From an uncultured delta proteobacterium (lineage in GTDB: Bacteria; Myxococcota_A; Polyangia; Haliangiales; Haliangiaceae), in assembly GCA_900696455.1 (NCBI GenBank), contig CAADGB010000477.1, positions 1 to 64,000 on the forward strand: a stretch of DNA of 64,000 nucleotides, given 5' to 3'. A model generated the notes under the pieces. That model was not told the DNA's origin. It saw only the letters and a program-made list of their open reading frames with translations, and ran no database searches. Positions within the stretch are counted from its first letter, which is position 1. Each line of letters starts with the position of its first letter. Positions 3,561 through 24,347 of the stretch are shown here, piece after piece. The translations under genes and the position numbers were made by a program.

Positions 3561-5567
3561 TCAGGGCCGCTTCGCCAGCGCGGCCCGGTAGGTCATGGTC
3601 ATGGCGATCGCCACCAGGATCATGCCCGGCCACATCAGATCGTGGTACGCGCCGCCGGCGATCGCGATGACCTTGGCGTCGCCCGAGATCGCGCTGGGGA
3701 TGGCGACCACGAGGCCCATGAGGGCCTCGCCGGTGATGAGGCCGGCGGAGAACAGGAGGCCCTGACGCTCGACCGTGGCCCGGCGCTCGCCGCCGGCCGC
3801 GCCCTCGGCCCGCAGCGCCCGATCGATGGCCCACGCGATCAGGCCGCCGAACAGGATCGGCGTCGACAGGTCGAACGGCAGGTAGACGCCGACCGCGAAC
3901 GCCATGACCGGGGTCCGGAACGACCAGCCGGCCTTCTCGGCCACCAGGTCGAGGGCGATCACGACCAGCGCGATCACCGCGCCGATGCCGATGAAGAGCT
4001 TGGGCAGGCCGCCCTGGAAGACGCCCTGCGCCACCGAGCCCATGAGGTTGGCCTGGGGCGCCGACAGCGCCTTGCTGCCGATCGTGAAGGCCTCGTGCAG
4101 GAGGTTGAGCAGCGGCGCCATCAGGAGCGCCGCCACCACCACGCCGACGATCTGCATGACCTGCTGCTTCCACGGCGTCGAGCCGACGAGCTGGCCGGCC
4201 TTGAGGTCCTGGACGTTGTCGGCCCCGATCGAGGCGGCGCAGCAGACCACGCCGCCGATGAGGATGGCGGCCACCGGGCCGGCCTCGGGGCCCACGCCCA
4301 TGGCCAGGAGCAGGAGCGCCGAGGTCAGGATCGTCGCGATCGTGATGCCCGACACCGGGTTGTTCGAGGAGCCGACCAGGCCGGCCATGTACGACGCGAC
4401 CGCGGCGAACAGGAAGCCGGCCACCAGCATCACCACCGCCATCACCGCCGAGATGCCCCACGAGCCGACGAAGTGGTGGAAGATGAAGAACAGCGGGATC
4501 ACCGACAGGCCGATGAGCACCAGGATGATGTTCATCGGCATGTCGCGCTCGGTGCGGAGCATCGTGTGGCCGCCGCCGACGCGGGTCTTCTGGTAGGCGT
4601 CGAGGCCGGCCTTGATGCCGGACAGGAGCGAGCGGCGCAGGCGGATGAGGGCGTAGAAGCCGCCCACCAGCATGCAGCCGACGCCGAGGTAGCGGGTGGC
4701 GCCGTAGTGGATCTCGTCGGCGGCGACCAGCGCGGTCAGGTCCCGGTCGGCGAGGAGGTCGGCCAGGGTCTGGCCGCTGGCGCGGTCGACGATGATCGCG
4801 GTGGCGTCGCCGAGCTCGGCGAACAGCGGGATGGCGATCCAGCGGTTGACGGCGGCGCCGGCGAAGATCACCAGCGCGACGTTGAGGCCGACGATGTAGC
4901 CGACGCCGATCAGCGCCGGCGACAGGTTGGAGCCGACGTAGAGCGGGGTCTTGCCGGTGACGTAGGTGGCCCAGGCCGCGGTCTCGCCGTAGAGCTTGAG
5001 GCCGGTGGCGCCGATCTTGCCGATGGCGCCGACCACGGCGGCCAGGGCGATGATGCCGACGCCGCCGCCGTGGGTGGCGCCGACCTTGAGCACCTCGGCG
5101 GTGGCCACGCCCTCGGGGAACTGCAGCGGCTGGTCGATGATGAGGGCGCGGCGCAGCGGGATCGTGAACAGCACGCCGAGGATGCCGCCGAAGCCGGCGA
5201 TGAGCGTGGTCTCGACGTAGGAGAACCGCGACCAGGTGCCGAGGATGAGCAGCGCGGGCAGGGTGAAGATGACGCCGGCGGCCAGGCCCTCGCCCGACGC
5301 CGCCGAGGTCTGCACCAGGTTGTTCTGCAGGATGTTGCTGCCGCGCACGAAGCGCAGGATGCCCATCGAGATGACCGCGGCCGGGATCGAGGCCGAGACC
5401 GTCATGCCCGCGAACATGCCCAGGTAGGCGTTGGCGCCGGCGAGCACGGCCGACAGGATCGAGCCGAGGACGACGACGCCGATCGTCAGCTCGACCAGGC
5501 TCTGGCTGGCGGGGATGAACGGCGTGACGGACGACGGCTTGGACGCGGGCGGCGGATCGCTGGCCAT
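3561..5567 (-). CDS. OPT-family oligopeptide/metal-chelate transporter
   Basis: A polytopic inner-membrane protein of 668 residues, the usual length for prokaryotic OPT/YSL proteins, which import small peptides or metal chelates with protons. It has many hydrophobic helices and family-typical segments: NAYLGMFAGMTVSASIPAA near residue 50, an SAASGEGLAAG stretch near residue 90, and SSNNPVSGITI near residue 400. A GTG two codons upstream (5573) is possible, but AAGGGAG lies 5 bases before the ATG at 5567, so that ATG is preferred. The gene stands alone; the downstream lipoprotein is 198 bases away. The substrate cannot be told from sequence. Confidence 0.88.
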   Translation of the reverse strand: MASDPPPASKPSSVTPFIPASQSLVELTIGVVVLGSILSAVLAGANAYLGMFAGMTVSASIPAAVISMGILRFVRGSNILQNNLVQTSAASGEGLAAGVIFTLPALLILGTWSRFSYVETTLIAGFGGILGVLFTIPLRRALIIDQPLQFPEGVATAEVLKVGATHGGGVGIIALAAVVGAIGKIGATGLKLYGETAAWATYVTGKTPLYVGSNLSPALIGVGYIVGLNVALVIFAGAAVNRWIAIPLFAELGDATAIIVDRASGQTLADLLADRDLTALVAADEIHYGATRYLGVGCMLVGGFYALIRLRRSLLSGIKAGLDAYQKTRVGGGHTMLRTERDMPMNIILVLIGLSVIPLFFIFHHFVGSWGISAVMAVVMLVAGFLFAAVASYMAGLVGSSNNPVSGITIATILTSALLLLAMGVGPEAGPVAAILIGGVVCCAASIGADNVQDLKAGQLVGSTPWKQQVMQIVGVVVAALLMAPLLNLLHEAFTIGSKALSAPQANLMGSVAQGVFQGGLPKLFIGIGAVIALVVIALDLVAEKAGWSFRTPVMAFAVGVYLPFDLSTPILFGGLIAWAIDRALRAEGAAGGERRATVERQGLLFSAGLITGEALMGLVVAIPSAISGDAKVIAIAGGAYHDLMWPGMILVAIAMTMTYRAALAKRP

Positions 5568-5636
5568 GGACACTCCCTTGCCGCGCGATTAGTCCACCCG
5601 CTCCCGGAGACGGTCAACGGGAGGCCCCGGGTTTGA

Positions 5637-7067
5637 TCAGGCGCGGGCGGCGCGCCGCCGCGGCCGCCGCAGGCCGGGCGCGCCGAGGCCGAGGCCGAGG
5701 CCGAGGGCCAGCGTCAGGTCGCCGAGGCCGCGCCCGCCGCGGGCGGCGCCGCAGCCGCCGCTGTCGCCGCCCGGCCAGCACAGCCCGGCGCCGTCGCCGA
5801 TGCAGGCGTAGCCGCCGGGGCAGCGGCGCCCGTCGTCGCACGGCAGCGTGCAGGCCGCGCCGTCGTCGACGGTGGCCGTGCACTGGCCCGAGCCGCAGTC
5901 GGCGCCGGTGGCGCAGGTCGCGCCGAGGCCGCCGGGCGCCGACGCGCCCGGCACGCAGGCGCCGCCCAGGCAGTGGTGGCCGGCGGCGCAGGCGCCGTCG
6001 GCGCCGCACGCGGCGAGGGCGAGGACGGCGACCGAGGCCTCGCCCTCGAGGCCGCGCTGGTCGATCGCGCGCACCCGGACGGCGTGCGGCCCGGGCGCCA
6101 GGTCGGCCGGCCCGTTGAAGGCGAACGGCGGCGCGGTCAGCGCGGTGACGGTGGTGCCGTCGACGGCGAGCGCCACCTCCTGCATCTCGAGCAGCGTGTC
6201 GAGGGCGACCTGCACCGGGAAGCCGCCGCGCACCCAGGCCCCGGCGTGGGGCGTCGTGATCGTCACCCCGGGCGCGGGCAGCTCGCTGGCGCCGAAGGTG
6301 GCGGTGAGGAACGTGTAGCTGTTCTGGGTGTCGCCACCGCACCAGCACTCGCGCGGCGCCGCCAGCTCCTCGCCGCAGGCCCCGGCCTGGTTCTGGAAGC
6401 GCTTGCGGTAGGGCGGCACCAGGTAGGTCATGGGGTCGTCGCGCAGGAGCACGTGATCGAGGCCGAAGGCGTGGGCGGTCTCCTGCGCCACCGCCCAGCA
6501 CAGCACGTCGGTCTGGTCGGTGAGGTTGGCGAAGACGAAGGTAGGGACGTTGTCGATGATGCCGCCGCACGGCACGAACGGCGCCACGCCCAGCGCCCCC
6601 TCGAGCTGGATGTCCTCGGGGTCGCCGCCGACGAAGACCTCGAAGTGGCTGGCCTGCCCCGGATCTTCGGTGACGATCTGGACGTCGAACGGGGCGTAGG
6701 TCTCGCGCACGCAGCGCACCAGCGCGGCCCAGGCGGCGTCGCCGTGCGGCCACGCGTCGAGCTGCGACGTCTGCTGGGGGATGCTCGAGCGGTTGGTGCG
6801 CGAGTCGTCGGTGCCGGGGACGACGATGCAGCCGCCGGGGCGGCAGTCGTTCATGTAGATGACGCGGGAGAAGCCACCGTGCGCCGGGGCCTGGACCCGG
6901 CGCTGGCCGAAGACGCCGACCTTCCAGCCGTCGCCGTCGGGGGTGCCGGTGCGAGGCGCGGCGGCGGCCGGGCCGGTGCCGGCGGCGGCGAGGGCCAGGC
7001 CGGCGGCGAGACCGGCGGCGAGACCGGCGGCGAGACCGGCGGCGAGGCGCGAGCGGGGACGGAGCAC
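5637..7067 (-). CDS. Secreted metzincin-like protein with MYXO-CTERM-like tail
   Basis: 476 residues from a GTG at 7067; earlier in-frame starts would overlap the divergent gene. The N-terminus is a signal peptide whose core is a repeated Ala-Ala-Gly-Leu. Near residue 195 is AQETAHAFGLDHV, which matches the metzincin zinc motif HExxHxxGxxH except that Gln replaces the first His. A Cys-rich region at about 365-440 (ADGACAAGHHCLGGACVPG) is followed by Gly-Gly-Cys-Gly, a short hydrophobic stretch and an Arg-rich end, like the MYXO-CTERM sorting tail known from myxobacteria. It is therefore probably exported and surface-anchored. Whether it is an active protease is doubtful because of the His-to-Gln change. 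Confidence 0.7.
   Translation of the reverse strand: MLRPRSRLAAGLAAGLAAGLAAGLALAAAGTGPAAAAPRTGTPDGDGWKVGVFGQRRVQAPAHGGFSRVIYMNDCRPGGCIVVPGTDDSRTNRSSIPQQTSQLDAWPHGDAAWAALVRCVRETYAPFDVQIVTEDPGQASHFEVFVGGDPEDIQLEGALGVAPFVPCGGIIDNVPTFVFANLTDQTDVLCWAVAQETAHAFGLDHVLLRDDPMTYLVPPYRKRFQNQAGACGEELAAPRECWCGGDTQNSYTFLTATFGASELPAPGVTITTPHAGAWVRGGFPVQVALDTLLEMQEVALAVDGTTVTALTAPPFAFNGPADLAPGPHAVRVRAIDQRGLEGEASVAVLALAACGADGACAAGHHCLGGACVPGASAPGGLGATCATGADCGSGQCTATVDDGAACTLPCDDGRRCPGGYACIGDGAGLCWPGGDSGGCGAARGGRGLGDLTLALGLGLGLGAPGLRRPRRRAARA
7000..7047. repeat. 12-bp tandem repeat in a signal-peptide region
   Basis: Three exact and one near-exact copies of CCGGCGGCGAGA lie head to tail. On the minus strand they encode Ala-Ala-Gly-Leu units in the hydrophobic core of the secreted protein's signal peptide. 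The repeat length is a multiple of three, so copy-number change would lengthen or shorten the signal core without a frameshift. Confidence 0.85.
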
Positions 7068-9165: not shown

Positions 9166-10560
9166 TCACGACCGGTACGAGCGCGAGTCGATGGCGTGGC
9201 GCTGCAGGAGCCGACGGAAGTTCGTGCGGTCGATCGACGCCAGCCTCGCCGCCGCCGAGATGCTCCCGTTCGCCCGCTCGAGGAGGCTCACCAGGTAGCC
9301 GCGCTCGAACTCCAGGGCAGCTCGGCGCTTGGCCTCTGCCAGCGAGACGCCGGGCTCGAAGGCGGGCTGCACGACGTGGGGGAGGGTCTCCCGGTTCGGT
9401 CGCGCCGGGCGGTGTGCGGGCCTCACCGCCTCGGGGAGCGCGGCGAGGTCGATCCGCCCGTGGGTCATCGCCAGGGCGTGCTGGAGCGCGTTCTCGAGCT
9501 CGCGGACGTTGCCGGGCCAGCGGGAGGCCATGAGCGCGTCGAGCGCCTCGTCGTCGATGGACGGCAGGGCATCGGCGGCATGGCGCTGCAGGAGCGTGGC
9601 GATGAGCCCGGGCAGGTCCTCGGGACGCTCGCGGAGGGGGGGCACGCGGAGGTTCACCACATCCAGGCGGAAGTACAGGTCGGCCCGGAACCTCCCCTCG
9701 TCGACGGCGCGAGCGAGATCGACGTTGGTCGCAGTGATGATGCGGACATCCACGGCGCGGGCGGTGTCGCTGCCCACCGGTCGGACCTCCTTCTCCTGCA
9801 GCGCGCGCAGGAGTCGGGCCTGGACCGGCAGCGGCATGTCCCCGATCTCATCGAGGAAGAGGGTGCCTTCGTGGGCCTCCACGAACACGCCCGGGCGCGC
9901 GCTGGTGGCGCCCGTGAAGGCGCCGCGGGTGTGGCCGAACAGCTCGCTGTCGATGAGGCCATCGGGGATCGCGCCGCAGTTGATGGCGACGAAGGCGCGG
10001 CGGGCCCGGGGCGACGCCTGGTGGATCGATCGCGCCACGACCTCCTTGCCCGTCCCGCTCTCACCCGTCACCAGCACGCTCACGCCAGACCGCGCGATGC
10101 GGGCCACCTGGCCGCGCAGGTCGGCCATGAGGTCGCTCGGGCCGACCAGCAGGCTCAGCGCGTCCCCCGTCTCCTCGGGCACGTCGGCGTGCGCCGCCGT
10201 GTGGCGGATCGCGTCTGCGATCACCGGGAGCAGGGTGCTTGGATCCAGCGGCTTGACCAGGTAGTGGTAGGCTCCGCCGCGGAGGGCCGCGGTGGCCGTC
10301 TTCGCGGTGGCGTCACCGGTGAGCATCACCACCGCGGACTGGCAGCCAGCTTCGCGCAGGGTGGCGAGGACGTCGAGGCCGCTCTCGTCGCCGAGGTCCA
10401 CGTCGAGCACGATGGCGTCCCACGTCGGCGCCGGCGACCGGCGGCGGAGCAGCGCTACGACCTCGGCCGGCGACGAGGCGTGCTCGGTCTCGTGGTCGCC
10501 GGCGGCCAGCAGTCGTTGCACGGCTCGGGCGACCGCGGGGTCGTCTTCGATCACGAGCAC
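9166..10560 (-). CDS. NtrC-family sigma-54-dependent response regulator (module copy 1)
   Basis: 464 residues in three parts: a receiver domain (about 1-115, phospho-acceptor in IVLDVDLGD), an AAA+ ATPase with GESGTGKE Walker A, the sigma-54-contacting GAFTGA loop and LFLDEIGDMP Walker B, and a Fis-type DNA-binding helix-turn-helix at the end (SIDRTNFRRLLQR). It should activate sigma-54 promoters when phosphorylated. The start is uncertain: a TTG at 10617 is in frame, but GGAGG lies 6 bases before the GTG at 10560, which begins directly at the receiver strand LVIEDD. It follows the REC-histidine kinase gene, its probable partner. A paralogue lies at 24348-25772. Confidence 0.9.
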   Translation of the reverse strand: MLVIEDDPAVARAVQRLLAAGDHETEHASSPAEVVALLRRRSPAPTWDAIVLDVDLGDESGLDVLATLREAGCQSAVVMLTGDATAKTATAALRGGAYHYLVKPLDPSTLLPVIADAIRHTAAHADVPEETGDALSLLVGPSDLMADLRGQVARIARSGVSVLVTGESGTGKEVVARSIHQASPRARRAFVAINCGAIPDGLIDSELFGHTRGAFTGATSARPGVFVEAHEGTLFLDEIGDMPLPVQARLLRALQEKEVRPVGSDTARAVDVRIITATNVDLARAVDEGRFRADLYFRLDVVNLRVPPLRERPEDLPGLIATLLQRHAADALPSIDDEALDALMASRWPGNVRELENALQHALAMTHGRIDLAALPEAVRPAHRPARPNRETLPHVVQPAFEPGVSLAEAKRRAALEFERGYLVSLLERANGSISAAARLASIDRTNFRRLLQRHAIDSRSYRS

Positions 10561-10638
10561 GCGGCTCCTCCGGCCCTCCACCTCCCCAGTTTGCCCGAGG
10601 ACGAGGTCCTGGAACAACCGGTGCGGCCAGGAGCGTGC

Positions 10639-11865
10639 TCACTCCACCAGGGTGACCTGGCCCGCAGGCAGGGAGAGCGTGAACCGGGCTCCCTCGGGCT
10701 GGGCGTCGTAACGGATGCGCCCGCCGTGGGCCTCGCAGGCCAGGCGGCAGAAGTACAGGCCCAGCCCACGCTGGCCGTCCTTGCCCAGGGCGTACTTGCC
10801 GAACAGCCGCGGGACGACGGCCGCCGGGACCGGGCCCCCGGTGTTGCTCACGCTGATCTCGATGCGAGCCGGCTCGTAGGGCGACGTGATCTCGCGCGCT
10901 TCGACCCGGACCATCCCACCGGCGTTGCAGTAGCGCGCCGCGTTGCCGATCAGGTTGTGAAGGGCGCGGGCGATGAGCCCCTCGTCGAAGCGACCCACGA
11001 GATCAGGATCGCAGGAGACGGAGTTCCGGATCTGACGGGTGAACGTCGGGGTGTGTACGCCCAGGACCTCGAGGAGCAGGTCGCGGAGCCGGACCTGAAC
11101 GGGTCGCGGCCGCAGCGCATCCTCCTCGAACCTGGCGATGTCGACGAAGTTCGCCACCAGGCCCGCCATCCGGCGCAGCGCCCGCATGGTCGCGCTCATG
11201 GCCTCGCCCTCGTCGACGTCGAGCCGCAGGGTCTGCGACAGGTAGGTGATGTTGGAGAGCGCGACCGTGAGGCCGTTGTTGAGGTCATGGGCGAGCAGGG
11301 AGGCCGCCTCGGTGCCCCAGGCCAGGAGCCGGTCGGCGTGCTCGCGGGCCTCGCGCGCGGCGATGTAGGCCTGCTGGGCGCGAGCGGCGGCGCGGGCGCG
11401 CTGACGCAGCTCGTCGGGTGAGATCGGCTTGCACAGGAAGCCGTCGGCCCCGCGGTCGAACGCCTCGATCCGCGCGTCGGGATCGTCGCACCCGCTCAGG
11501 ATCTCGGCGTGGATCGCCTCCCCATACAACGCCTTGAGCCGCGCGACCACCTCCAGGCCGCCCACGGGCATGGAGAGGTCGACGAACGCCAGATCGAACG
11601 GCACCTGCTCCGCGAGGGCGATCGCCTGGGTGCCGTCGTCCGCGGTGCGGACGTCGTAGCCGAGGCCGGCGAGCGCGCGGGCGACGGCGCGGCAGATCGA
11701 CGCCTCGTCGTCGGCCACGAGCACGCGGACGGCCGCGGGCATCGGCGTCCCCCCGGGCGAGGCGGGCGCGGCAGCCTCCGAGGGGACGCCGGGCGGCGCC
11801 GCGGGGCGCGCGGGCGCCGCGGCGGAGGCGAGGGACGTGGCGGCGACCGAGGGCAGGGCGGGCAT
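10639..11865 (-). CDS. REC-histidine kinase (module copy 1)
   Basis: 408 residues: an Ala/Pro-rich N-terminus, a receiver domain (VLVADDEASICRAV, acceptor in AFVDLSMP, Lys in FLCKPIS), then a kinase core with His in LLAHDLNNGLTVALSN and an ATP-binding domain (LIGNAARYCN, GLGLYFCRLACEAHGG). There is no membrane segment, so it is cytoplasmic. The receiver-before-kinase order suggests that phosphorylation input from elsewhere tunes the kinase. The ATG at 11883 lies inside a sigma-54-like promoter, whereas the ATG at 11865 is 14 bases after its GC, so 11865 is chosen. The likely target is the NtrC-type regulator just downstream. The paralogue at 23034-24236 is very similar. Confidence 0.88.
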   Translation of the reverse strand: MPALPSVAATSLASAAAPARPAAPPGVPSEAAAPASPGGTPMPAAVRVLVADDEASICRAVARALAGLGYDVRTADDGTQAIALAEQVPFDLAFVDLSMPVGGLEVVARLKALYGEAIHAEILSGCDDPDARIEAFDRGADGFLCKPISPDELRQRARAAARAQQAYIAAREAREHADRLLAWGTEAASLLAHDLNNGLTVALSNITYLSQTLRLDVDEGEAMSATMRALRRMAGLVANFVDIARFEEDALRPRPVQVRLRDLLLEVLGVHTPTFTRQIRNSVSCDPDLVGRFDEGLIARALHNLIGNAARYCNAGGMVRVEAREITSPYEPARIEISVSNTGGPVPAAVVPRLFGKYALGKDGQRGLGLYFCRLACEAHGGRIRYDAQPEGARFTLSLPAGQVTLVE

Positions 11866-11877
11866 GCCCCGGGTCAA

Positions 11878-11893
11878 TGCCATCGCCGTGCCA
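11878..11893 (-). promoter_or_regulatory. Sigma-54-like promoter of kinase copy 1
   Basis: The minus strand reads TGGCACGGCGATGGCA: 11 of 12 fixed positions of the consensus TGGCACG-N4-TTGCW, with GG-N10-GC intact. The predicted transcript start is about 11867, two bases before the ATG at 11865. The element differs at only two of 16 positions from the one before kinase copy 2. Confidence 0.7.
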
Positions 11894-11932
11894 GCTCGCT
11901 TCGCGCTGCACGAATCGCGCGTCCGGTCGAGC

Positions 11933-11938
11933 TATGAT
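11933..11938 (+). promoter_or_regulatory. Possible -10 element of Ser/Thr kinase copy 1
   Basis: TATGAT, one base off TATAAT, stands out in this GC-rich DNA 15 bases before the GTG at 11954. No good -35 is seen. The predicted leader would be about 9 bases and overlap the AGGAGGG ribosome site. Confidence 0.35.
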
Positions 11939-11953
11939 GGACGAGGAGGGACC

Positions 11954-13213
11954 GTGGTCGACGTCTCCACATCGAACCCCGCGCTATCACCGGTGGTCGT
12001 CTGCGACGCGCTCCTCGACGCGGCGATCGGCGCTGGCGCCGACACCCTGTGGCTCGAGCCGCGGCGCCCGCCCGAGGACCGTTACGAGCTGTCGATCGAG
12101 CGCGAGGGGCGGACCCTGGCGATGACGGCCCTCGACGGCGCCCTGGGCGCGGCGGTGGTCGCGCGCCTGGCGATCCTGGCCGAGCTCGACCTGGTAGCCC
12201 GGCGGCCGACGACCGGGCGCTGCGTCGTCCGCCGCCCGACGTCGAGCGCCGAGATCGTCGTCACGATGCGCCCCGGTCGCTCGCCGCGCGCCGAGGTCTT
12301 CATCCGTGGTTCGCGCGTGCGGCCCGTGGCCGTCTCCCGACCGGCGAAGATCGAGCCGGGGGCGACGATCGGTCACTACGCGGTCGAGGCGCGCCTCGGC
12401 GCCGGCGGCATGGGCCAGGTGTTCCGCGCCCGGCATCGCGCGCTGGGGCGCGGCTGCGCGCTCAAGGTACTCCACCAGGACGGCGGCCGCTCCGACGACG
12501 CCGCGGAGCGCTTCCTGCGCGAGGCCCGGGCGGCGGCGCGCATCAAGCACCCCAACATCGTCGACGTCTTCGACTTCGGCCACCTCCCCGATGGCCGGCC
12601 CTACCTGGTGATGGAGCTCCTCGACGGTCGCAGCCTGGCCGACTACGTCGGCGGCGACGCGCTGGAGCCGCGGGTCGCGGTGCGCTTCGCCCGCGAGCTG
12701 GCCTCGGCGCTGGTCGCCGCCCACGAGGTCGGCGTCATCCACGCCGACGTCTCGCCCTCCAACATCCTGGTCTCCGGCGAGGTGGCGAAGCTGGTCGACT
12801 TCGGGCTGGCGCGGACGATCGACGACCCTGATCGCCTGGACGAGGGCGAGACCGCGGAGTGCGTGTACGGCACACCGTCCTACATCGCGCCCGAGATCAT
12901 CCGGGGGCTCGACGCGGTCCCCGAGAGCGATCAGTACGGCCTGGGGGCGGTGCTGTTCGAGATGCTCACGGGAGAGCCGCCCTACAGCGCCTCGAGCGTG
13001 CGGGAGCTGTGCATCGCCCACCTGAGCGCAGCCATCCCTCGCCCCGAGAGCCCCCACGCCCAGCTCCCGGTGGAGGTGGTGCGGACGGTCCAGCGTTGCC
13101 TGGCCAAGCGCCCCGAACAACGCTTCCCGACCATGTCCGCGCTCGAGGTCGCCCTGACCGAGGCCGAGCAGTCCCTGGCCTCGGCGGGCTGGCGACGCTG
13201 GCTCACCCCATAG
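11954..13213 (+). CDS. Ser/Thr kinase with GspE/PilB-like N-terminal domain (module copy 1)
   Basis: 419 residues. GGAGGG lies 3 bases before the GTG at 11954. Residues 1-130 resemble the N-terminal part of GspE/PilB secretion ATPases (GADTLWLEP like their ASDIHxEP; AVVARLAILAELDLVARR like the RLKIMA-LDIAERR segment) but carry no ATPase core. A protein kinase domain follows: LGAGGMGQVF glycine loop, CALKVL Lys, catalytic loop HADVSPSN, LVDFG and IAPE. The loop has Ala instead of Arg before the catalytic Asp, so it is a non-RD kinase. No membrane segment is present. It is followed by a response-regulator gene 21 bases on. The paralogue is at 21623-22894. Confidence 0.9.
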   Translation: MVDVSTSNPALSPVVVCDALLDAAIGAGADTLWLEPRRPPEDRYELSIEREGRTLAMTALDGALGAAVVARLAILAELDLVARRPTTGRCVVRRPTSSAEIVVTMRPGRSPRAEVFIRGSRVRPVAVSRPAKIEPGATIGHYAVEARLGAGGMGQVFRARHRALGRGCALKVLHQDGGRSDDAAERFLREARAAARIKHPNIVDVFDFGHLPDGRPYLVMELLDGRSLADYVGGDALEPRVAVRFARELASALVAAHEVGVIHADVSPSNILVSGEVAKLVDFGLARTIDDPDRLDEGETAECVYGTPSYIAPEIIRGLDAVPESDQYGLGAVLFEMLTGEPPYSASSVRELCIAHLSAAIPRPESPHAQLPVEVVRTVQRCLAKRPEQRFPTMSALEVALTEAEQSLASAGWRRWLTP

Positions 13214-13234
13214 CCCGACCGTGCGAGATCGACC

Positions 13235-13801
13235 ATGAGCACGCCCATCATCCTCTGCGTCGACGATGACCCCGACATGCTGGCCGCGGTCGTTCGAACC
13301 CTGCGCCGGGAGGGCCACACGGTGCTCGCGGCCAGCTCGCCCCACGAGGCCCTCGAGATCCTGGCGCGGCAAGCGGTGGCGGTCCTGCTCTCGGACTTCG
13401 AGATGCCGGAGATGACAGGCGTGGAGCTGGCGGTGCGCGCCCGCGACCTGCAGCCCGAGACCGTGCGCATGATGCTGACCGGCAAGGGCACGATCGAGAC
13501 CGCGATCGCCGGCATCAACGTGGGCGAGGTCTTCCGCTTCCTCGCCAAGCCCTTCGAGCCGGCCACGCTCCGGCGCGAGGTCGCCGCCGCGCTGGAGCAC
13601 CACCGCGAGATCGCCGACATCGCCAGCGAGCGCCTCACGGTGTACCGCCGCCGACGCGTCCGCGAAGGGCTGGAGGGCGAGCATCCCGGGATCACCGCGG
13701 TGCCGCGTGACGACGACGGCGCGTACTTGCTGGATCCAGACGCGCGCCATCGGCTCGACGGCTATCCGGAGCTGGAGCCGCTGCTCTCGCTCCTCATCTG
13801 A
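13235..13801 (+). CDS. Response regulator with short conserved tail (module copy 1)
   Basis: 188 residues. Residues 1-120 are a CheY-like receiver (ILCVDDDPDML, acceptor in LLSDFEMPEMTG, MMLTGKGT, Lys in FLAKPF), similar to the RpfG-type subclass but without an HD-GYP output domain. Residues of about 130-188 form a small tail with a pattern also present in the paralogue at 21045: an Arg-rich stretch, HPGI, then an acidic turn and YLLD. The tail is not a known DNA-binding or enzymatic domain, so output may be by protein contact. The gene is cotranscribed with Ser/Thr kinase copy 1. Confidence 0.82.
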   Translation: MSTPIILCVDDDPDMLAAVVRTLRREGHTVLAASSPHEALEILARQAVAVLLSDFEMPEMTGVELAVRARDLQPETVRMMLTGKGTIETAIAGINVGEVFRFLAKPFEPATLRREVAAALEHHREIADIASERLTVYRRRRVREGLEGEHPGITAVPRDDDGAYLLDPDARHRLDGYPELEPLLSLLI

Positions 13802-13850
13802 TCCGGTAGCGCCCGGGTCGCGGCGCGGTGCGGAGGCGGCGCGCGCGGCG

Positions 13851-13866
13851 TGGTCTGACGCTTGCA
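13851..13866 (+). promoter_or_regulatory. Sigma-54-like promoter of second FliA-type sigma factor
   Basis: TGGTCTGACGCTTGCA keeps GG-N10-GC and a perfect TTGCA -12 box (9 of 12 fixed positions). The predicted transcript start is about 13877, two bases before the ATG at 13879. Confidence 0.55.
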
Positions 13867-13878
13867 CTGCAGGCTGGC

Positions 13879-14571
13879 ATGACCTCGCGGCGCGAACGTG
13901 ATGCACTCATCTCGACCCACACCGCCGTGGCGCGCCGGATCGCGCGCCGGATCGCGCGCCGCTGTCCAGCGTGGATGAGCCGCGCCGACCTCGAGGGCGC
14001 CGCGCTGGTCGGCCTGACCGAGGCCGCCGCCCGGTACGAGCCCGCGCGCGGCGAGCCGTTCCTCGGCTTCGCGATCCGTCGGATCCGCGGCGCGGTCCTC
14101 GACGAGCTTCGCCGTGGGGACCTCCTGCCGCGGCGAGTGCGCCAGCTGGCGCGCCGGGTCGACGAGGTGATCGGCGCGCTCCAGGCCGAGCGCGGTGGCA
14201 CGCCTGACGACGCCGTGGTCGCGGCCGCGCTCGGCGTGAGCGTCGACCGCTACCACCGCGAGCTGCGGCCGCTCGCCGCCGTCCGGGTCGATCCGCTCGC
14301 GGACCTCGAGCGCACGATCTCCGGATCGTCCGACCCCTCACCGGCGTCGCTCGCCGAGCGCAACCAGCTCCGCGCCGTGGTGCGGCGCGGCCTGGCGCAG
14401 CTCGACCCACGCGACGCGGCCGTGCTGTGGATGCTCCACGGCCAGGGGCTGCCGTGCGCCGAGGTCGCGCGCTGCCTCCGCGTCAGCAGTTCGCGGGTGT
14501 GTCAGCTCAACGGTCGCGCGCTCGACCGCCTGCGCTCGATGATCGAGGGTGCCGGCGCGGTCGCCGCCTGA
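13879..14571 (+). CDS. Second FliA/WhiG-type sigma factor
   Basis: 230 residues with sigma-70 regions 2, 3 and 4 in order: RADLEGAALVGLTEAAARYE, an RRIRGAVLDELRRGD segment shared with FliA proteins, and a C-terminal helix-turn-helix (AEVARCLRVSSSRVCQLNGR). It is clearly related to fliA at 55186 (both contain DELRRGD-x2-PRRVRQ-x-AR) but is diverged and shorter at the ends. An ATG at 13828 is possible, but the sigma-54-like promoter spacing favours 13879. It lies directly after signalling module copy 1 and points towards a minD-like gene on the other strand. It may read a subset of late flagellar or other promoters; its targets are unknown. Confidence 0.85.
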   Translation: MTSRRERDALISTHTAVARRIARRIARRCPAWMSRADLEGAALVGLTEAAARYEPARGEPFLGFAIRRIRGAVLDELRRGDLLPRRVRQLARRVDEVIGALQAERGGTPDDAVVAAALGVSVDRYHRELRPLAAVRVDPLADLERTISGSSDPSPASLAERNQLRAVVRRGLAQLDPRDAAVLWMLHGQGLPCAEVARCLRVSSSRVCQLNGRALDRLRSMIEGAGAVAA

Positions 14572-15567
14572 TCAGCGGGTCGGGAGCTCGCGCTCGACCC
14601 AGATCGGCAGCGTGCGCTCCGCGGCCTGGGCGCGGCCGGCGAGGCGCAACCGCCGCACGTCGACGTCGAGCACGGTCCGGGCCAGGGCTCGCAGCGCGCC
14701 GACCGCCTCGGCCGGGCGATCGAGCATCGCGATCGGCGTGCGATCGTTGACCGACTTCCGGATGGCGTCGTGCAGGGGCAGGGTCCCGATCACCGGGGCC
14801 CGCAGCATGAGGTAGTCGGCCATCATCGTCGACATCCGCGCGAACACCGCGCGGTCTTGCTCCGAGCTCGTCATGTTGCCGACGATCATCACCCCGAAGC
14901 GCGCGAGGACGTCGACCACGGCGTCGGCGAGCTCGGGGTGGCTGTCGCGGAGGATCGCCACCGCGCGCTGGACCGGACGGGACTCGCCTTCGCCGGTGAG
15001 GAGCTCCTCGAGGATCGCGCGCGACTCGTTGTCGTCCGGCAGCCGGCGCAACGAGCGCTGGACACAGGCCTTGACGAACGAGTAGCCGTTCTGGAGCGAG
15101 GTGAGCTGTGGGGTCATGACCACCACCTTGATGTCGGCGGCGACGACCAGGTCGACGGTGTTGTAGGCGCTGCCCGCGCCGACGTCGACGATGACGACGT
15201 CGCCCCCGAGGTTGGCGATCGCGCGCAGGAGCCGCAGCTTCTGGCCGGCGTTGATGTTGGCGGCCCCGGCCCGGGCGGTGCCGGGGATGACGCGCAGGTT
15301 GGGCGTGCCGCCGTCGATCGCGGCGTCGGCCAGGGTCTCGACCTCGTGGTCGAGGTAGGCGCCGAGGCCAGGCCCCGGTCGCATCACCCCGAGCAGGGTG
15401 TGGACGTTGGGCGCGCCGAGATCGGCGTCGACGATCGTCGTCCGGTAGCCGAGGCGTCCGAGCATGATGCCGAGGTTGAGGGAGACCACGCTCTTGCCCA
15501 CGCCGCCCTTGCCGCCAGCGACGGCGACGACGCGGCCCGCCCGCCGGCGCGTCGGATCAACCGCCAC
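14572..15567 (-). CDS. MinD/ParA-family ATPase, FlhG-like paralogue
   Basis: 331 residues with a deviant Walker A KGGVGKS at about residues 19-25, switch I VDADLGAPNVHTLLG and VIVDVGAG, as in the MinD/FlhG/ParA group. It lacks the N-terminal DQAxxLR helix that FlhG uses to stimulate FlhF, and which the copy at 54311 has. A longer C-terminal half follows, containing VGNMTSSEQDRAVFARM. The gene is last in the fliL-pseI-maf operon and overlaps maf by 11 bases, starting with GTG. It could position the glycosylation machinery or flagellum, or regulate number; the role is inferred from neighbours only. Confidence 0.8.
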   Translation of the reverse strand: MAVDPTRRRAGRVVAVAGGKGGVGKSVVSLNLGIMLGRLGYRTTIVDADLGAPNVHTLLGVMRPGPGLGAYLDHEVETLADAAIDGGTPNLRVIPGTARAGAANINAGQKLRLLRAIANLGGDVVIVDVGAGSAYNTVDLVVAADIKVVVMTPQLTSLQNGYSFVKACVQRSLRRLPDDNESRAILEELLTGEGESRPVQRAVAILRDSHPELADAVVDVLARFGVMIVGNMTSSEQDRAVFARMSTMMADYLMLRAPVIGTLPLHDAIRKSVNDRTPIAMLDRPAEAVGALRALARTVLDVDVRRLRLAGRAQAAERTLPIWVERELPTR

Positions 15568-17485
15568 GGCGCGCCTCGATCCGGTCGAGCGCGGCGCCGA
15601 CCACGCCCAGGGTGCGGGCGGCGGCCTCGAGCAGCTTCGCGGTCGCCGCCAGGTAGTCGCCTTCGAGCGCGGGCCGCCGGGCCTCGTCGAAGGCGGCGGC
15701 GATCTCGCGCTGAGCGAGCATGCTGATGAAGTCGTGGCGCCGCAGCACCGCGGCCAGCTCGCGCTCGACCGGCGGCAAGGTCACCGCGGCGGTGGCGGCG
15801 TCGCCGCGGGCGAGCGCGGCGCCGCGGCGGGCCAGCCGCAGCGCGCGCCGCAGGTCGCGCCGGGTCCGTCCGAACCAGCGGTGGGCCGCCGCCGCCCGCG
15901 CGGCGCGACCGGTGGCCGCGAGGGCGCCGTCGAGCGCGGCGGCGACGTCGACCGGCGCGGTCAGGGTGGCCACGACGTCGCGCAAGGGGACGTGGGTCAT
16001 GCCCTCGATCCGCGCACCGCCCTCGGTGCAGTTGTAGAGCGTGACGCGGGCCTGCTCGCGCCTGGCGACCTCGACGAACCAGCGATGGAACAGCGCGAAC
16101 ATGAAGCTCGAGGGCACCGTCCCCCCGTGCCAGCCGGGCAGCTCGATCGAGCGCTCGCGCGCTGGCCGCGGGCCGCCGGCGGCCTTCATCGCGTGGAAGC
16201 CGGCGCTCCAGCCGGCGACCGAGACCTGGCCGCTGGCGTCGACCTCGGCGCGCGCCGCGCCGTCGCAGCTGGTCGCGACGTAGTACTGGCCGCCCGGGAA
16301 CGACAGATCGAGCCCGACCATCACGATGGGATCGCAACGCCAGCGCAGCGCCAGCGACAGGGCGGTGGTCGCCACCGAACCGCCGCCCGGGACGTCGGCG
16401 TCGTCATGGTCACCGACGCTGTCGTAGAGCCAGCGATCGAGGGCGCCGTTGCCGGCCAGGCTGAACTGGCGCGCCACCCCGAGCTGCCACAGCGCGGGGT
16501 GGACGGTGACGCCGTTGATCAGCGCGCCGACGCCGTCGAGGTCGCCGGGCGCGAAGTGGTCGCGCACGTCCTGCGGATCGACCGTGACGACCACGTCGGG
16601 GACCACGCCCGCCGCCCGCAGCGGTCGCAGGGAGTGCGAGAAGGCGATGATCAGCGCGCGGCCTCGCAGCTCGCGCAGCAGCGCCACGTTGTGGGCCAGG
16701 GACGGGCCGGGCGCGCAGATGATGGCCGGGATCCCGGCGAGCCGGCCGTCGACCGAGGCCACCGACGGCCAGCGCGCGATCGCGTCGAGGTTGGCCACGC
16801 CCTGCTCGAGCCAGGTCCGCGAGAAGGCGGCCACCGTGTTGTGGTGCACGCGCAGGTCGCACAGCGCGGTGTGGATGGCGTCGGCCACGGTCCGGGTCAG
16901 CTCGGCGGGCGTCGGGTCGAGGCTGCGCAGGACCACGCGCTCGGGCGGCGACGGCGACATGGCGCGGACCACCCGCGCCGCCTCGTCGGCGTCGGCCACC
17001 ACCGACACCGCCGGCGGGTACGCGGCGGTGGCCGGATCGGTGACCGCCAGGATCCGGGCCTGGCCGAGGTCGAGCAGGTTGGCCGCCACAGGCTCGAGCC
17101 CGGGGCCGAGCAGGACCACGAGGTCGGTGGTCGCGTCCCAGGTCGTGGGCAGGAGCTCGTCGGCGAGGCACGCCACGCCCAGCGGCGAGGCGACGAGGGT
17201 CTGGGGTGGCGGCAGGGGGCGCTCGTGCCAGGTGTCGGCGACGGCCGCCGCCGTGCGCCCTCCCTCGACCAGCCCGCGCAGCGAGGCGAGCAGGGCCGGG
17301 TCGTCACCGGTCAGCGGCTTGCGGGCCAGCTCGGCGCGGAGGCGGCGGCTCTCGTGGGAGGCGGCCAGCGCGGCGATCACGTCGCCGCGGGCGGCGGCGT
17401 CGGCGAGGGCGAGCCCGGCGTGGCCGAGCTCGGCGAGCAGGCGCGCGGTGCCCGCACCCTCGGGCGCGCGTTCAGGGCTGGCCAT
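15557..17485 (-). CDS. maf: Motility-associated factor (Maf) glycosyltransferase, DUF115/MptE-like
   Basis: 642 residues, in the range of Maf proteins that transfer nonulosonic acids such as pseudaminic acid to flagellin Ser/Thr residues. It carries the DUF115 core: IICAPGPSLAHNVALL near residue 248, DVVVTVDPQD, MVGLDLSFPGG, and the Maf hallmark NCTEGGARIEGM near residue 488. The C-terminal part is helical. It is encoded after spsF with a 14-base overlap and before the minD-like gene, within the fliL operon. The substrate is probably the flagellin that begins at 63821, or FlgK/FlgL; the sugar is inferred from pseI upstream. Confidence 0.88.
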   Translation of the reverse strand: MASPERAPEGAGTARLLAELGHAGLALADAAARGDVIAALAASHESRRLRAELARKPLTGDDPALLASLRGLVEGGRTAAAVADTWHERPLPPPQTLVASPLGVACLADELLPTTWDATTDLVVLLGPGLEPVAANLLDLGQARILAVTDPATAAYPPAVSVVADADEAARVVRAMSPSPPERVVLRSLDPTPAELTRTVADAIHTALCDLRVHHNTVAAFSRTWLEQGVANLDAIARWPSVASVDGRLAGIPAIICAPGPSLAHNVALLRELRGRALIIAFSHSLRPLRAAGVVPDVVVTVDPQDVRDHFAPGDLDGVGALINGVTVHPALWQLGVARQFSLAGNGALDRWLYDSVGDHDDADVPGGGSVATTALSLALRWRCDPIVMVGLDLSFPGGQYYVATSCDGAARAEVDASGQVSVAGWSAGFHAMKAAGGPRPARERSIELPGWHGGTVPSSFMFALFHRWFVEVARREQARVTLYNCTEGGARIEGMTHVPLRDVVATLTAPVDVAAALDGALAATGRAARAAAAHRWFGRTRRDLRRALRLARRGAALARGDAATAAVTLPPVERELAAVLRRHDFISMLAQREIAAAFDEARRPALEGDYLAATAKLLEAAARTLGVVGAALDRIEARRGG

Positions 17486-18236
17486 GATGGACCTCCGGAC
17501 CGCGGGCGCTCACGTGCCACGGCACCTGGGCGACGCCGGCGTTGAGCGCCACCAGCTCGGGTCGGGCGCGCAGGGCGGCGACGACCTCGTCGCTGGCAGG
17601 CGGCCGCCGGTCGCCGTCGAGGATCGCCCACAGCGCGCGGACCACGGTCAGGTCCTCGGGCGTGTCGACGGTCACCCGCAGCTCGCCGTCGGCGTGGGGG
17701 GCGACGACCTGACGGACGACGAACAGCGCCGGGCGCTCGCGGACGAAGGCCGTGACGTGCTCGCGGGCCGCCGCGCTCGTCGCCAGCCGGTGGATGCGGG
17801 CCAGCACGTCCGCGTGGAGCGCCTCGACGTCGAGCCCGCGCGGGTAGCTGCGGACGTGGGTGTTGGAGGCGTAGTCGGCGCCGCGCTCGAGCGCGCCCAC
17901 CACCCGGTCGATCACGGCGGGGTCGAGCAGCGGACAGTCGGCGGTCAGCCGGACCACCACCTCGGCTCCGATCGCCGTGGCGGCGCCGTGGTAGCGATCG
18001 AGCACGTCGTCGGCGTCCCCGCGGTGGCAGGCGACCCCGAGGGTGGCGGCGCGCGCCACGATCGGATCGTCGGCGGGCGCGGTCGTGGTCGCGATCACGA
18101 CGCGATCGATCGTCGCGCTCGCCTGGGCGGCGGCGATCACCCGATCGAGGAGCGGTCGGCCGCCGAGGTCGGCCAGGACCTTGCCCGGCAGGCGCGTCGA
18201 GCCCATGCGGGCCTGGATGATCGCGGCGATGGTCAC
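17472..18236 (-). CDS. SpsF/PseF-like cytidylyltransferase
   Basis: 254 residues starting with GTG at 18236, which overlaps the methylase stop as GTGA. The N-terminus IIQARMGSTRLPGKVL is the nucleotidyltransferase signature of the SpsF/NeuA/KdsB group; RLTADCPLLDP is the metal-binding part. In nonulosonic acid pathways such enzymes load the sugar onto CMP. The gene lies between the methylase and maf, so activation of the sugar before transfer is likely. An upstream in-frame ATG at 18365 is less likely because it would lie deep inside the methylase gene. Confidence 0.82.
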   Translation of the reverse strand: MTIAAIIQARMGSTRLPGKVLADLGGRPLLDRVIAAAQASATIDRVVIATTTAPADDPIVARAATLGVACHRGDADDVLDRYHGAATAIGAEVVVRLTADCPLLDPAVIDRVVGALERGADYASNTHVRSYPRGLDVEALHADVLARIHRLATSAAAREHVTAFVRERPALFVVRQVVAPHADGELRVTVDTPEDLTVVRALWAILDGDRRPPASDEVVAALRARPELVALNAGVAQVPWHVSARGPEVHHGQP

Positions 18237-18856
18237 GGCGCCGGCTTCTCGAAGATGTGGAACGTGCAGTCGTCGTAGCCGTCGGCCTCCCCCAGCGGGC
18301 CACGGCGGCGGAGCGCGAGCGTGGGGTGGCGGGCGGCGAGGGCGGCGCCGTGGTCGCGTTTCCATAGCGCGTCGGCCAGGCCGCGGTAGGGGAGGGCCTG
18401 CTCCTCGGCGGCGTCGTACTCGATCACGACGATCCAGCGCCGGCTCACCCGGACCAGTTCGTCGAGCGCGCGCCCGAGGTCGTCGGGGGCGATGTGGATC
18501 AGCACGCCGCTGGTGAACGCCAGGTCGAACCAGCGGTCACGGAAGGGCAGGTCGAACGCGGTCCCGGGCAGGAGGTGGAGGGCGGGTGAGCGCCGGCGGG
18601 CGCGCTCGATCGCGAAGCGCTGCGGCTCGATCCCCCACACCTCGGGCACGCCGCACGCGGTGAGGTACTCGAGGTTCCGACCGACGTTGCAGCCGACCTC
18701 GAGCGCGCGCGTGACGTCGAGGCCTTCGAGCAAGCGGGTCCAGGTGGCGATGCGCTCGGGGCGCACCAGGTCGTTGCGCTCGGTGTACGCGGCGCCGAAG
18801 GCCGAGCGCCACAACGCGAGCTGGGGGGTCTGATCGTGAGCGGCGGGGTCAGGCAT
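18233..18856 (-). CDS. Class I SAM-dependent methyltransferase of the nonulosonic acid cassette
   Basis: 207 residues with SAM-binding motif I LEVGCNVGRN (about residues 52-61), acidic WGIEPQ at the end of strand 2, FDLAFTSGVLIHI as the motif IV region, and WIVVIEYDA. This pattern matches methylases often found beside pseudaminic acid genes. It probably methylates the sugar or a precursor. Its start overlaps the GNAT gene by 8 bases. Confidence 0.8.
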   Translation of the reverse strand: MPDPAAHDQTPQLALWRSAFGAAYTERNDLVRPERIATWTRLLEGLDVTRALEVGCNVGRNLEYLTACGVPEVWGIEPQRFAIERARRRSPALHLLPGTAFDLPFRDRWFDLAFTSGVLIHIAPDDLGRALDELVRVSRRWIVVIEYDAAEEQALPYRGLADALWKRDHGAALAARHPTLALRRRGPLGEADGYDDCTFHIFEKPAP

Positions 18857-19355
18857 GGGGGTTCCTCCACGTCAGGCGCCGGAAGCCAGGGGGGCACGGC
18901 CCGAACCAGGTGGCGGCAGGCTCCGCGCGTTCGCTGACCGCGAAGCCGGCGGCCAGGAAGCAGGTGAGGCTGGCCTGGTTGCCGAGCTGGATCTCGGCGA
19001 CCAGCGGGCCGCCGTCCAGCCGGCAGGCGGCGCGTACGGCGGCGCGCCCGACGCCCCGGCCGCGCGCCAGCGGATCGAGGACGAGCGACACCCGGCCGGG
19101 CGCCTCGCGGGCGGGGCGCTCGATCCGGATGAGTCCCATCGCCGTCGGCCCGTCCTCGACGATCCACATGTGGGTGAGGGGGTCGGCGATGCGGGCGCCG
19201 TACCACCGCGCGTGGGCGGCGGCGTCGATCGGGCGCGGATCGCGAGAGCACGCCCGGACGTCGGCGGCGCCGTTCCACGCCAGCACGCGATCACGATCGC
19301 CGGCGCCGGCGGCCCGCAGCCGGACGCCGTCGCGCGGCAGCGGTACCGCGGCCAT
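18849..19355 (-). CDS. GNAT-family acetyltransferase, PseH-like
   Basis: 168 residues. The ATG at 19355 overlaps the pseI stop as TGATG. GNAT features are the RPIDAAAHARWY region, IRIERPAR, VSLVLDPLARGRGVGRAAV (the acetyl-CoA P-loop, pattern R/Q-x-x-G-x-G/A) and NQASLTCFLAAGF. PseH acetylates the amino-sugar intermediate of pseudaminic acid, and position next to pseI supports a similar job. Which carbon or sugar is acetylated cannot be told. Confidence 0.8.
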   Translation of the reverse strand: MAAVPLPRDGVRLRAAGAGDRDRVLAWNGAADVRACSRDPRPIDAAAHARWYGARIADPLTHMWIVEDGPTAMGLIRIERPAREAPGRVSLVLDPLARGRGVGRAAVRAACRLDGGPLVAEIQLGNQASLTCFLAAGFAVSERAEPAATWFGPCPPGFRRLTWRNPHA

Positions 19356-20461
19356 CACGCGACCAGCTCCCAGGCCACGGGGGTGCCCCGGGCGATCGGG
19401 ACGCGCGCGCGTCGGCCGAGGAGGGTCGGCAGCTCGCGCGGCGGCAGGCCGTAGCCCGGGCGGATCGCGCGGACATTGGCGGCCGTGAACGGGGCGCCAG
19501 CGGGGATGTCCGCGACGACGTAGAGGGAGCGCCGGAACGGCCGGCTGGTGGCCTCGCTCGCCGGCCGTCGCGCGCCGCCGTCGCCGAGCGCCTGCCACGC
19601 GATCCGGCAGCCGCGGACGACGGCCGCCATCTCCGCGGGCTCGAGCGAGAACGCAGCGTCGGGGCCGCCGTCGGCGCGGGCCAGGGTCAGGTGCTTCTCG
19701 ATGATGCAGGCGCCGCGGGCGGCGGCGGCGATCGCGACCTCGGCGCCCGGCGTGTGGTCCGAGAGACCGACCGGCCCGTACCCGGCCAGGGCGTCGAGGC
19801 GGCGCAGGTTGGCGTCGGCGACCGGGGTCGGGTAGCCGGAGACACAGTGCAGGACGAAGACCTCCGCGGCGCCGGCCACCCGGGCGGCGGTGATCGCCTC
19901 CTCGATCTCGGGCTCGCTGGCCATCCCGGTGGACACGACCAGCGGCTTGCCGGTCGCGGCGGCGGCGCGGATCAGCGCCAGGTCGCCGAGCTCGAAGCTG
20001 GCGATCTTGTGGATCGGCGCCGCGAGCGTCTCCAGGCGGGCGACGGCGTCGACGTCGAAGGGCGCCGAGAACACGGTCAGCCCCAGCTCGCGCCCGCGCG
20101 CGAAGAGGATCGGGTGCCAGTCCCACGGGGTCATGGCCTCGGCGTACAGGTCGTAGAGGCGACGGCCGGCCCACGGCCCGGCGGCGATGTCGAAGCCTGG
20201 TCCGCCGAGGTCGAGGGTCATGCCGTCGGGGGTGAAGGTCTGGAGCTTGAGCGCGTCGCACCCGGCGGCGGCCGCCGCCTCGACGATGGCGAGCGCGCGG
20301 TCGAGCCGCCCGAGGTGGTTCGCGGACAGCTCGGCCACGATCCATGGCGGGTGGCCGGCGCCGATCGGCCGGCCGTCGATCACGACGGTCCTCGGCCCGC
20401 GGGTCGGCGACGTGGCGACGGGCGTGGTGGTGGCAGGGGGCATCTCGGTCACCGTGGTCAC
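19355..20461 (-). CDS. pseI: Pseudaminic/sialic acid synthase (PseI/NeuB family)
   Basis: 368 residues. Family marks are WIVAELSANHLGRLDRAL near residue 40, ALKLQTFTPD, KIASFELGDLALI, VVSTGMAS, LHCVSGYPT and EKHLTL, which build the TIM-barrel that condenses PEP with an amino-sugar. About 60 C-terminal residues form an SAF/antifreeze-like domain (RRSLYVVADIPAGAPF, RPGYGLPPRELPTLLGRRA). The GTG start overlaps the fliL stop as GTGA, so translation is coupled to a flagellar gene. The choice of pseudaminic over legionaminic or sialic acid is inferred from the neighbours. Confidence 0.88.
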   Translation of the reverse strand: MTTVTEMPPATTTPVATSPTRGPRTVVIDGRPIGAGHPPWIVAELSANHLGRLDRALAIVEAAAAAGCDALKLQTFTPDGMTLDLGGPGFDIAAGPWAGRRLYDLYAEAMTPWDWHPILFARGRELGLTVFSAPFDVDAVARLETLAAPIHKIASFELGDLALIRAAAATGKPLVVSTGMASEPEIEEAITAARVAGAAEVFVLHCVSGYPTPVADANLRRLDALAGYGPVGLSDHTPGAEVAIAAAARGACIIEKHLTLARADGGPDAAFSLEPAEMAAVVRGCRIAWQALGDGGARRPASEATSRPFRRSLYVVADIPAGAPFTAANVRAIRPGYGLPPRELPTLLGRRARVPIARGTPVAWELVA

Positions 20462-20952
20462 TGCACGACGAAGTCGGCGAAGATGATGCGGCGCACCCGA
20501 CCCTCTCCGACGATCTCCGCCACCTGCTCCTCGAGCGCGGTCCGGATGCGGTCCTTGCTGGCCGCGCCGAGGGTCTCGGCGACCTTGAGCCCGGACAGGT
20601 AGCCGAGCACGCCGTCGCGCACCAGCGTCTTGTTGCGCTCGAGGGTCTTGGCCGCCGCCGCGTCGATCATCTCGGCCTGGAGCTGGACCTTCAGGTAGCG
20701 CGACGTGCCGGGCTCGTCGAGGTTCACCACGAACGGCTCGAGGACCACCATCGGGCCGACCACCTCCTTGCGCGGCGCCTCGACGCTCTCCTTGGCCGGC
20801 GCGCCGGTCGCGTGGGCCGGGCGCGTCACCGTCTGGAAGACGAGGAAGCCGGAGGCCAGCAGGTTGACGACCAGGAGCGCGACCACGATCATCGGCGGAC
20901 GGGGTCGCGGCGGTGGCAGGTCGGCGGGGGCTTCTTCGTCAGCGTCGCTCAT
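20458..20952 (-). CDS. fliL: Flagellar basal-body-associated protein FliL
   Basis: 164 residues: a short Pro-rich cytoplasmic start, one membrane helix (MIVVALLVVNLLASGFLVF, about residues 21-39) and a periplasmic domain with the FliL features PFVVNLDEPGTSRYLKVQLQ and IIFADFVVQ at the end. FliL surrounds the stator and supports torque. It is separated from the main flagellar locus and heads the glycosylation operon. GGAGG lies 8 bases before the ATG, with a near-perfect sigma-54 promoter just upstream. Confidence 0.93.
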   Translation of the reverse strand: MSDADEEAPADLPPPRPRPPMIVVALLVVNLLASGFLVFQTVTRPAHATGAPAKESVEAPRKEVVGPMVVLEPFVVNLDEPGTSRYLKVQLQAEMIDAAAAKTLERNKTLVRDGVLGYLSGLKVAETLGAASKDRIRTALEEQVAEIVGEGRVRRIIFADFVVQ

Positions 20953-20975
20953 CGTCGGTTCCTCCAGAGATCCTC

Positions 20976-20991
20976 AGCAAGGCGCGTGCCC
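20976..20991 (-). promoter_or_regulatory. Sigma-54-like promoter of the fliL-glycosylation operon
   Basis: The minus strand reads GGGCACGCGCCTTGCT: 11 of 12 fixed consensus positions, including a perfect TTGCT. The predicted transcript start at about 20965 coincides with the GGAGG ribosome site, giving a 13-base leader to the ATG at 20952. Confidence 0.72.
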
Positions 20992-21044
20992 GGCCATCTC
21001 GCTGGTCTCGCAGGGCGGGGACCAGCGGTCGCCGCCGGTCGTCG

Positions 21045-22894: not shown

Positions 22895-23005
22895 GGTCCT
22901 ACCCGGGACATCGGCCGCGAGGGTCAGCCGTGTACGGGCGCCAGGACTGACGACAGGGTGCGGCGCGTGGCGCGCCTGCGTCCACGATGACGCGGGGTTC
23001 TGCGG

Positions 23006-23021
23006 TGGCACGGCGCTCGCA
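23006..23021 (+). promoter_or_regulatory. Sigma-54-like promoter of kinase copy 2
   Basis: TGGCACGGCGCTCGCA matches 11 of 12 fixed consensus positions. The predicted transcript start is about 23032, two bases before the GTG at 23034, exactly as at the paralogous promoter 11878-11893. Confidence 0.72.
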
Positions 23022-23033
23022 ACGCCAGCCGGC

Positions 23034-24236: not shown

Positions 24237-24246
24237 CGGCCTGGTG

Positions 24247-24263
24247 TCACCCGCCCGGGGTGA
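24247..24263. terminator. Hairpin between kinase and regulator of copy 2
   Basis: TCACCC and GGGTGA pair around a 5-base loop, 10 bases after the kinase stop. It may end or attenuate the sigma-54-driven transcript, since the next gene has its own promoter-like element. Confidence 0.35.
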
Positions 24264-24335
24264 ACCGCGAGGCGGCTATCCCAGGCGCTACCCACGGCGT
24301 GACCCAGCGCGACCTGCACGCCGGGGCCGACTGGC

Positions 24336-24341
24336 TATAGT
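24336..24341 (+). promoter_or_regulatory. -10 element, likely leaderless transcript
   Basis: TATAGT (one base off consensus) ends 6 bases before the GTG at 24348, where transcription would be expected to begin. No ribosome site precedes the GTG. A -35 is not clear. Confidence 0.45.
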
Positions 24342-24347
24342 GGACGC

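Follow-up and report, generated by a model that had tools for sequence, protein, structure and literature searches.

Ser/Thr kinases with a predicted GspE/PilB-type N2 domain and a neighboring receiver gene in one class of Myxococcota

The window, a stretch of 64,000 nucleotides from an uncultured delta proteobacterium that was analyzed as a whole, carries two genes for Ser/Thr kinases, STK1 and STK2, each with an N2-like domain ahead of its kinase domain. They lie in two mirror-image modules: one in the order NtrC, RecHK, STK1, REC (9166-13801) and the other in the order REC, STK2, RecHK, NtrC (21045-25772). The features are as follows.

9166-10617, minus strand: NtrC_a, sigma54-dependent response regulator, downstream of RecHK_a
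10639-11883, minus strand: RecHK_a, receiver-histidine kinase hybrid, divergent from STK1 (true start probably about 11742)
11954-13213, plus strand: STK1, N2-domain Ser/Thr kinase of 419 aa, GTG start
11984-12316, plus strand: N2-like domain of STK1 (model residues 10-120), from profile and structure matches
12377-13147, plus strand: Hanks-type kinase domain of STK1 (catalytic loop HADVSPSN)
13187-13210, plus strand: conserved C-terminal tail GWRRWLTP of STK1
13235-13801, plus strand: REC_a, receiver with conserved C-terminal extension, 21 bp after STK1
13828-14571, plus strand: FliA-like sigma factor, after REC_a
14572-15567, minus strand: FlhG/MinD-like ATPase
21045-21626, minus strand: REC_b, receiver partner of STK2, its ATG overlapping the STK2 stop (ATGA)
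21623-22894, minus strand: STK2, second N2-domain Ser/Thr kinase
21707-22453, minus strand: kinase domain of STK2
22502-22852, minus strand: N2-like domain of STK2
22779-24236, plus strand: RecHK_b, receiver-histidine kinase, divergent from STK2 (first ~110 codons probably not coding)
24348-25772, plus strand: NtrC_b, sigma54-dependent response regulator
35205-63730, plus strand: flagellar cluster (FliF, FliG, FliI, FlgE, FliQ-type, FlhB, FlhA, FlhF, FlgG, FlgK, flagellin)

The STK1 region is coding, and a strong AGGAGGG stands directly 5′ of the GTG at 11954, the start coordinate also given in the initial annotation of this DNA. The open reading frame at 20344-21792 (plus strand), antisense to REC_b, was dropped as a gene. 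In both kinases the region that matches N2 comprises about 110 residues ahead of the kinase domain, and the two N-terminal domains are 58% identical across 131 residues. A single-sequence search of the organism's own genome returned no further match to the N-terminal domain at E < 0.05; the genome's PilB-type ATPase surfaces only with a profile search (E = 6.7e-5).

Pfam searches with the whole of STK1 and STK2 give kinase-type matches alone and leave the N-terminal domain unannotated; the relation to N2 becomes visible only by profiles or when the N-terminal domain is scanned alone. A single-sequence search across 284 genomes of the phylum retrieved genuine ATPases with Walker A, matched in the same register over query residues ~5-98 (E = 1e-5 to 1e-2). 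These ATPases carry ASDIHIEP...SRIK..A.LDIAERR.PQDGR, which corrects the motor motif proposed in the initial annotation; the N2 match itself stands. By using a family profile built from 37 kinase N-terminal domains (A3) to search 177,635 distinct PDB sequences, we recovered PilB at E = 1.9e-5 to 6e-5 and GspE at 0.009, the next and unrelated match being at 0.87. Aligned with hhalign against 20 motor N2 domains, the kinase domains give a probability of 97.8 and E = 7e-13. PF00437, whose N-terminal part corresponds to the N2 domain of these ATPases, is the sole Pfam family to match two or more of the kinase domains (six of 37; best 0.0018, under its cut-off), and an NCBIfam pilus ATPase model matches STK1 residues 14-97 (E = 0.0058).

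The predicted fold agrees. An AlphaFold2 model of the N-terminal domain (pLDDT 88.5) has the order helix-3 strands-helix-3 strands, and its 22 top Foldseek matches are all PilB/GspE (E = 1.9e-7). In VIA structural alignment, the model superposes on the N2 domain of PilF/PilB with Z = 17.3 and an rmsd of 2.0 Å over 107 residues; PilB/GspE N2 domains in general score 14-17 (GspE ~16), PilT ~12, and chains outside this ATPase superfamily <8. The fold check proposed in the initial annotation thus yielded an N2 fold and no unrelated one. GC-rich composition was rejected as the source of the match, since the alignment stays in register for ~100 residues and is backed by the fold search. We also rejected an MshEN/N1 identity: N1/MshEN (PF05157) has no Pfam match at E ≤ 10 in STK1 or STK2, and just ~10-20 residues precede N2. 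From profiles and model together, the N-terminal domain is almost certainly a homolog of GspE/PilB N2 and not the c-di-GMP-binding N1/MshEN domain.

Downstream of N2, the kinase domain follows and no Walker A is present in the N2-kinases, in agreement with the earlier proposal that a protein kinase has taken the place of the motor ATPase. PF00069 matches the two window kinases at E = 1.1e-45 and 2.7e-43. As in other Hanks-type (PknB-like) Ser/Thr kinases, the Lys, Glu, catalytic Asp, Asn, DFG, and PE are invariant, here among 12 aligned N2-kinases. The window copies differ from PknB-like kinases in having N2 in front, a WRRWL tail, and a catalytic loop (HADVSPxN) in which the HRD Arg is Ala and the loop Lys is Ser. 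Since this loop is without the usual Arg and Lys, the N2-kinases are likely, though not sure, to be catalytically active. We saw no membrane or PASTA part in them, and a full-length kinase model (pTM 0.64) leaves the placement of N2 relative to the kinase domain unfixed.

Pilus and secretion motors are assembled from packing units of which N2 makes up one half. In PilB it packs against the ATPase domain of the neighboring subunit (N2-CTD), and in PilB of G. metallireducens the arginine fingers R271 and R286 contact the nucleotide and the ASP box (PMC5424180). We mapped these two by sequence position to the Arg of RVS and the Arg of MRLL, respectively, and counted residues in a joint alignment of 20 motor and 37 kinase N2 domains (A5 numbering for motor residues). 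The R271 column holds Arg in 20/20 motors and in 0/37 kinases; the R286 column, in 20/20 and 5/37. These counts speak against a nucleotide-like ligand at the N2 site, as the initial annotation had considered. Likewise gone in the kinases are residues invariant in motors: the Asp and His of SDIH (D28, H30), the Arg of RxDG (R43, replaced by Glu in 32 of 37 kinases), the Lys of SRIK (K67), and the Asp of PQDG (D82), together with the Glu of GE (E108), present in 19 of 20 motors. With these losses, canonical docking on a motor ring, also suggested for this domain, is unlikely.

What the kinase and motor domains share is the fold, the order of strands and helices, the hydrophobic core, the EP, the A, and the Asp of LDI/LDL, as well as the Arg of SRIK (R70 in kinase numbering), the sole invariant polar residue of the motors to be retained (37/37 kinases). 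They differ in that the kinases have no ATPase domain and have lost R271/R286, DxH, the RxDG Arg, the SRIK Lys, PQD, and GE. New polar positions are near-invariant in the kinases: D17 (35/37), R105 (35/37), and E/D113 (36/37), besides E48-R49 (numbered from window position 11957); W/Y32 is a further new conserved aromatic position. Residues of the hydrophobic core and helices are among the best conserved in domains that are otherwise 26%-71% identical to STK1. As judged from alignment and model, the kinases retain the N2 fold and its hydrophobic core but have lost the motor chemistry (arginine fingers and inter-subunit polar contacts). Nucleotide sensing and normal ring docking are accordingly disfavored, and a new role in interaction or sensing is favored; the near-invariant new polar residues suggest a selected surface or site.

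To look for the same fusion, as the initial annotation had called for, we searched the order and the class with profiles and then inspected the DNA; this gave 49 proteins with N2 and a kinase domain, all within one class of Myxococcota. The domain is present in 29 of 35 genomes of the order (in genome G315 the frame contains a stop); a count of 30 of 35 from the N-domain profile includes PilB matches and is not a count of kinases. Further members occur in other families of the class, and closer alignment gave as relatives 12 loci named Kofleriaceae, Myxococcales, or Deltaproteobacteria, names that make Kofleriaceae the most likely source of the window. There is no match at E ≤ 1e-9 outside the class in a sample of 379 genomes of the phylum and none in a plasmid collection, and a weak Clostridia locus was rejected as not matching the family profile.

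In a tree of the kinase domain only (quick method), a single branch (SH-aLRT 90) separates 47 alignable N2-kinases from 38 other kinases. The tree is compatible with a single origin, and the fusion probably arose once. STK1 and STK2 fall in separate subgroups, each with relatives from the same genus, so that the duplication probably predates the species. Two further loci are of note. At 4896-6656 (minus strand) of locus L070 in genome G310, an STK2-type copy is disrupted, the frame ending soon after VARLALLAG with no kinase in frame. Locus L034, with its match at 1501-1797 (plus strand), encodes a protein of 682 aa that seems to be made up of MshEN-like, N2-like, and degenerate ATPase parts and to have no Walker A motif of the GKT/GKS type.

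Fusions of the MshEN (N1) domain to Ser/Thr kinases have been described (Wang et al. 2016; PMC5013675), and these likewise place a piece of a GspE/PilB-type ATPase on a Ser/Thr kinase. The difference lies in the piece: N1 binds c-di-GMP, whereas the window kinases have N2 only, the protein beginning right before it. Our literature search, with most subscription journals outside its reach, returned reports of MshEN-kinase fusions and none of an N2-kinase fusion.

A constant companion of the N2-kinases is a receiver gene with a conserved extension of ~60 residues, which lies downstream on the same strand in 46 of 49 cases and within 100 bp in 44. The receivers keep the acidic pair, the T, and the K in 45/45 and the phospho-Asp motif in 44/45. 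Their extension, LExEHPGI[T/S]xV...GxYxLD, is unannotated (in the window, for example, at 13600-13801), and a S/T follows PG[I/V] in 33 of 45. The best model for REC is the NosR-family receiver (NCBIfam NF053512; E = 5e-36); the receiver is alike, but REC has the extension in place of the phosphodiesterase output of those regulators. On the kinase side, a C-terminal tail like GWRRWLxP occurs in 41 of 49. Neither this tail nor such a receiver nearby was found for the 30 best-scoring other kinases of the organism's genome.

Across the family, 21 loci have a divergent RecHK, 14 have NtrC, and 12 have flagellar genes in the vicinity, many of the contigs being short. Among the 35 genomes of the order, all 18 that are FliG-positive have an N2-kinase, and of those that are FliG-negative 11 have one and six do not (about 0.008 for this table, uncorrected for relatedness or genome completeness). 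The 11 FliG-negative carriers and most members outside the order have the module but no flagellar genes in its vicinity, and motility therefore cannot be its general output. The link to motility drawn in the initial annotation fits the flagellar neighborhood of the window's clade. A simple scan for sigma54 promoters near the modules gave nothing convincing.

The surroundings in the window show several other features. There are two FliA-like sigma factors (13828-14571 and 55186-55947) and two FlhG/MinD-like ATPases (14572-15567 and 54311-55189), one pair by a kinase module and the other within the flagellar cluster. A third Ser/Thr kinase, without N2, lies inside that cluster (43603-44898, minus strand), adjoining the hook gene. 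Between the kinase modules, the block at 15557-20345 (minus strand) encodes an MptE-like motility-associated protein, a cytidylyltransferase, a methyltransferase, and a GNAT protein, much of it shared with relatives, and may possibly serve flagellin glycosylation. A Pfam NAD-GH match on the open reading frame at 44673-45857 (plus strand) looks spurious, since it overlaps long minus-strand frames.

How might an N2 domain without its motor be used? We consider the chances about even that it has been exapted for regulation or docking, acting together with REC. In this reading, a Hanks-type kinase would have acquired the N2 of a GspE/PilB-type motor, probably in a single event, and N2 would since have become a protein-protein regulatory module, one that either holds and releases the kinase domain or binds a partner. 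The likeliest partner is the receiver protein whose gene lies immediately downstream. Kinase and REC would form a single signaling unit, in which REC, phosphorylated by the divergent hybrid histidine kinase or through its binding state, may tune the Ser/Thr kinase; alternatively, the REC extension may be a substrate of the kinase. Where members are flagellated, the target of this unit would be the sigma54/FliA flagellar program. That the kinase is active, that N2 regulates it, that REC is its partner or substrate, and that motility is an output are what we infer for the pair.

Other uses of the domain have to be weighed against this one. It could be an N2 turned PAS-like, a ligand-sensing input of the kinase; the new conserved polar and aromatic positions (W/Y32, D17, R105, E/D113) would suit such a site, and PAS/LOV/CACHE chains do appear in the tail of the fold search. 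N2-type domains of related motors have been described as PAS-like. However, the likeness to PAS is weak compared with that to N2 (VIA Z ~4 against 17), and we regard this use as rather unlikely. That N2 is a mere oligomerization or structural cap with no regulatory role would account for the conservation of core and helix residues amid divergence elsewhere, but the near-invariance of polar D17, R70, R105, and E/D113 makes an inert cap very improbable.

N2 might instead still dock on a ring of the GspE/PilB type, either by inserting at the N2-CTD interface or as a competitor for it, and thereby recruit the kinase to the motor of a pilus or secretion system and coordinate pilus and flagellum. 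Packing between neighboring subunits through N2-CTD is the known job of N2 (PMC5424180), the nearest structures are PilB/GspE rather than PilT, and T2SSE-family ATPases occur in 35/35 genomes of the order (E ≤ 1e-60). This ubiquity makes co-occurrence with type IV pili uninformative either way. Against docking stand the loss of nearly all motor-invariant polar residues, with the one Arg retained and the change of R43 to Glu, and a neighborhood that is flagellar and two-component, not pilus. We therefore consider it unlikely. A broader proposal, in which N2 is a transferable docking module by which the kinases bind a motor ring (PilB/GspE-like or of another machine) and couple pilus or secretion activity to flagellar gene control through Ser/Thr phosphorylation, seems to us distinctly unlikely.

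Exaptation of N2 as a regulatory or docking module with REC would mean that N2 can be reused as a signaling module, in a family that keeps the domain and drops the motor. The N2-kinases would also provide an accessible system for what N2 alone can bind. The conserved pair of kinase and receiver often sits next to hybrid histidine kinases and, in the window's family, next to sigma54 activators and flagellar genes. It is thus a candidate for a point at which Hanks-type kinases meet the two-component control of motility, in a myxobacterial lineage that is mostly uncultured and has been little studied.
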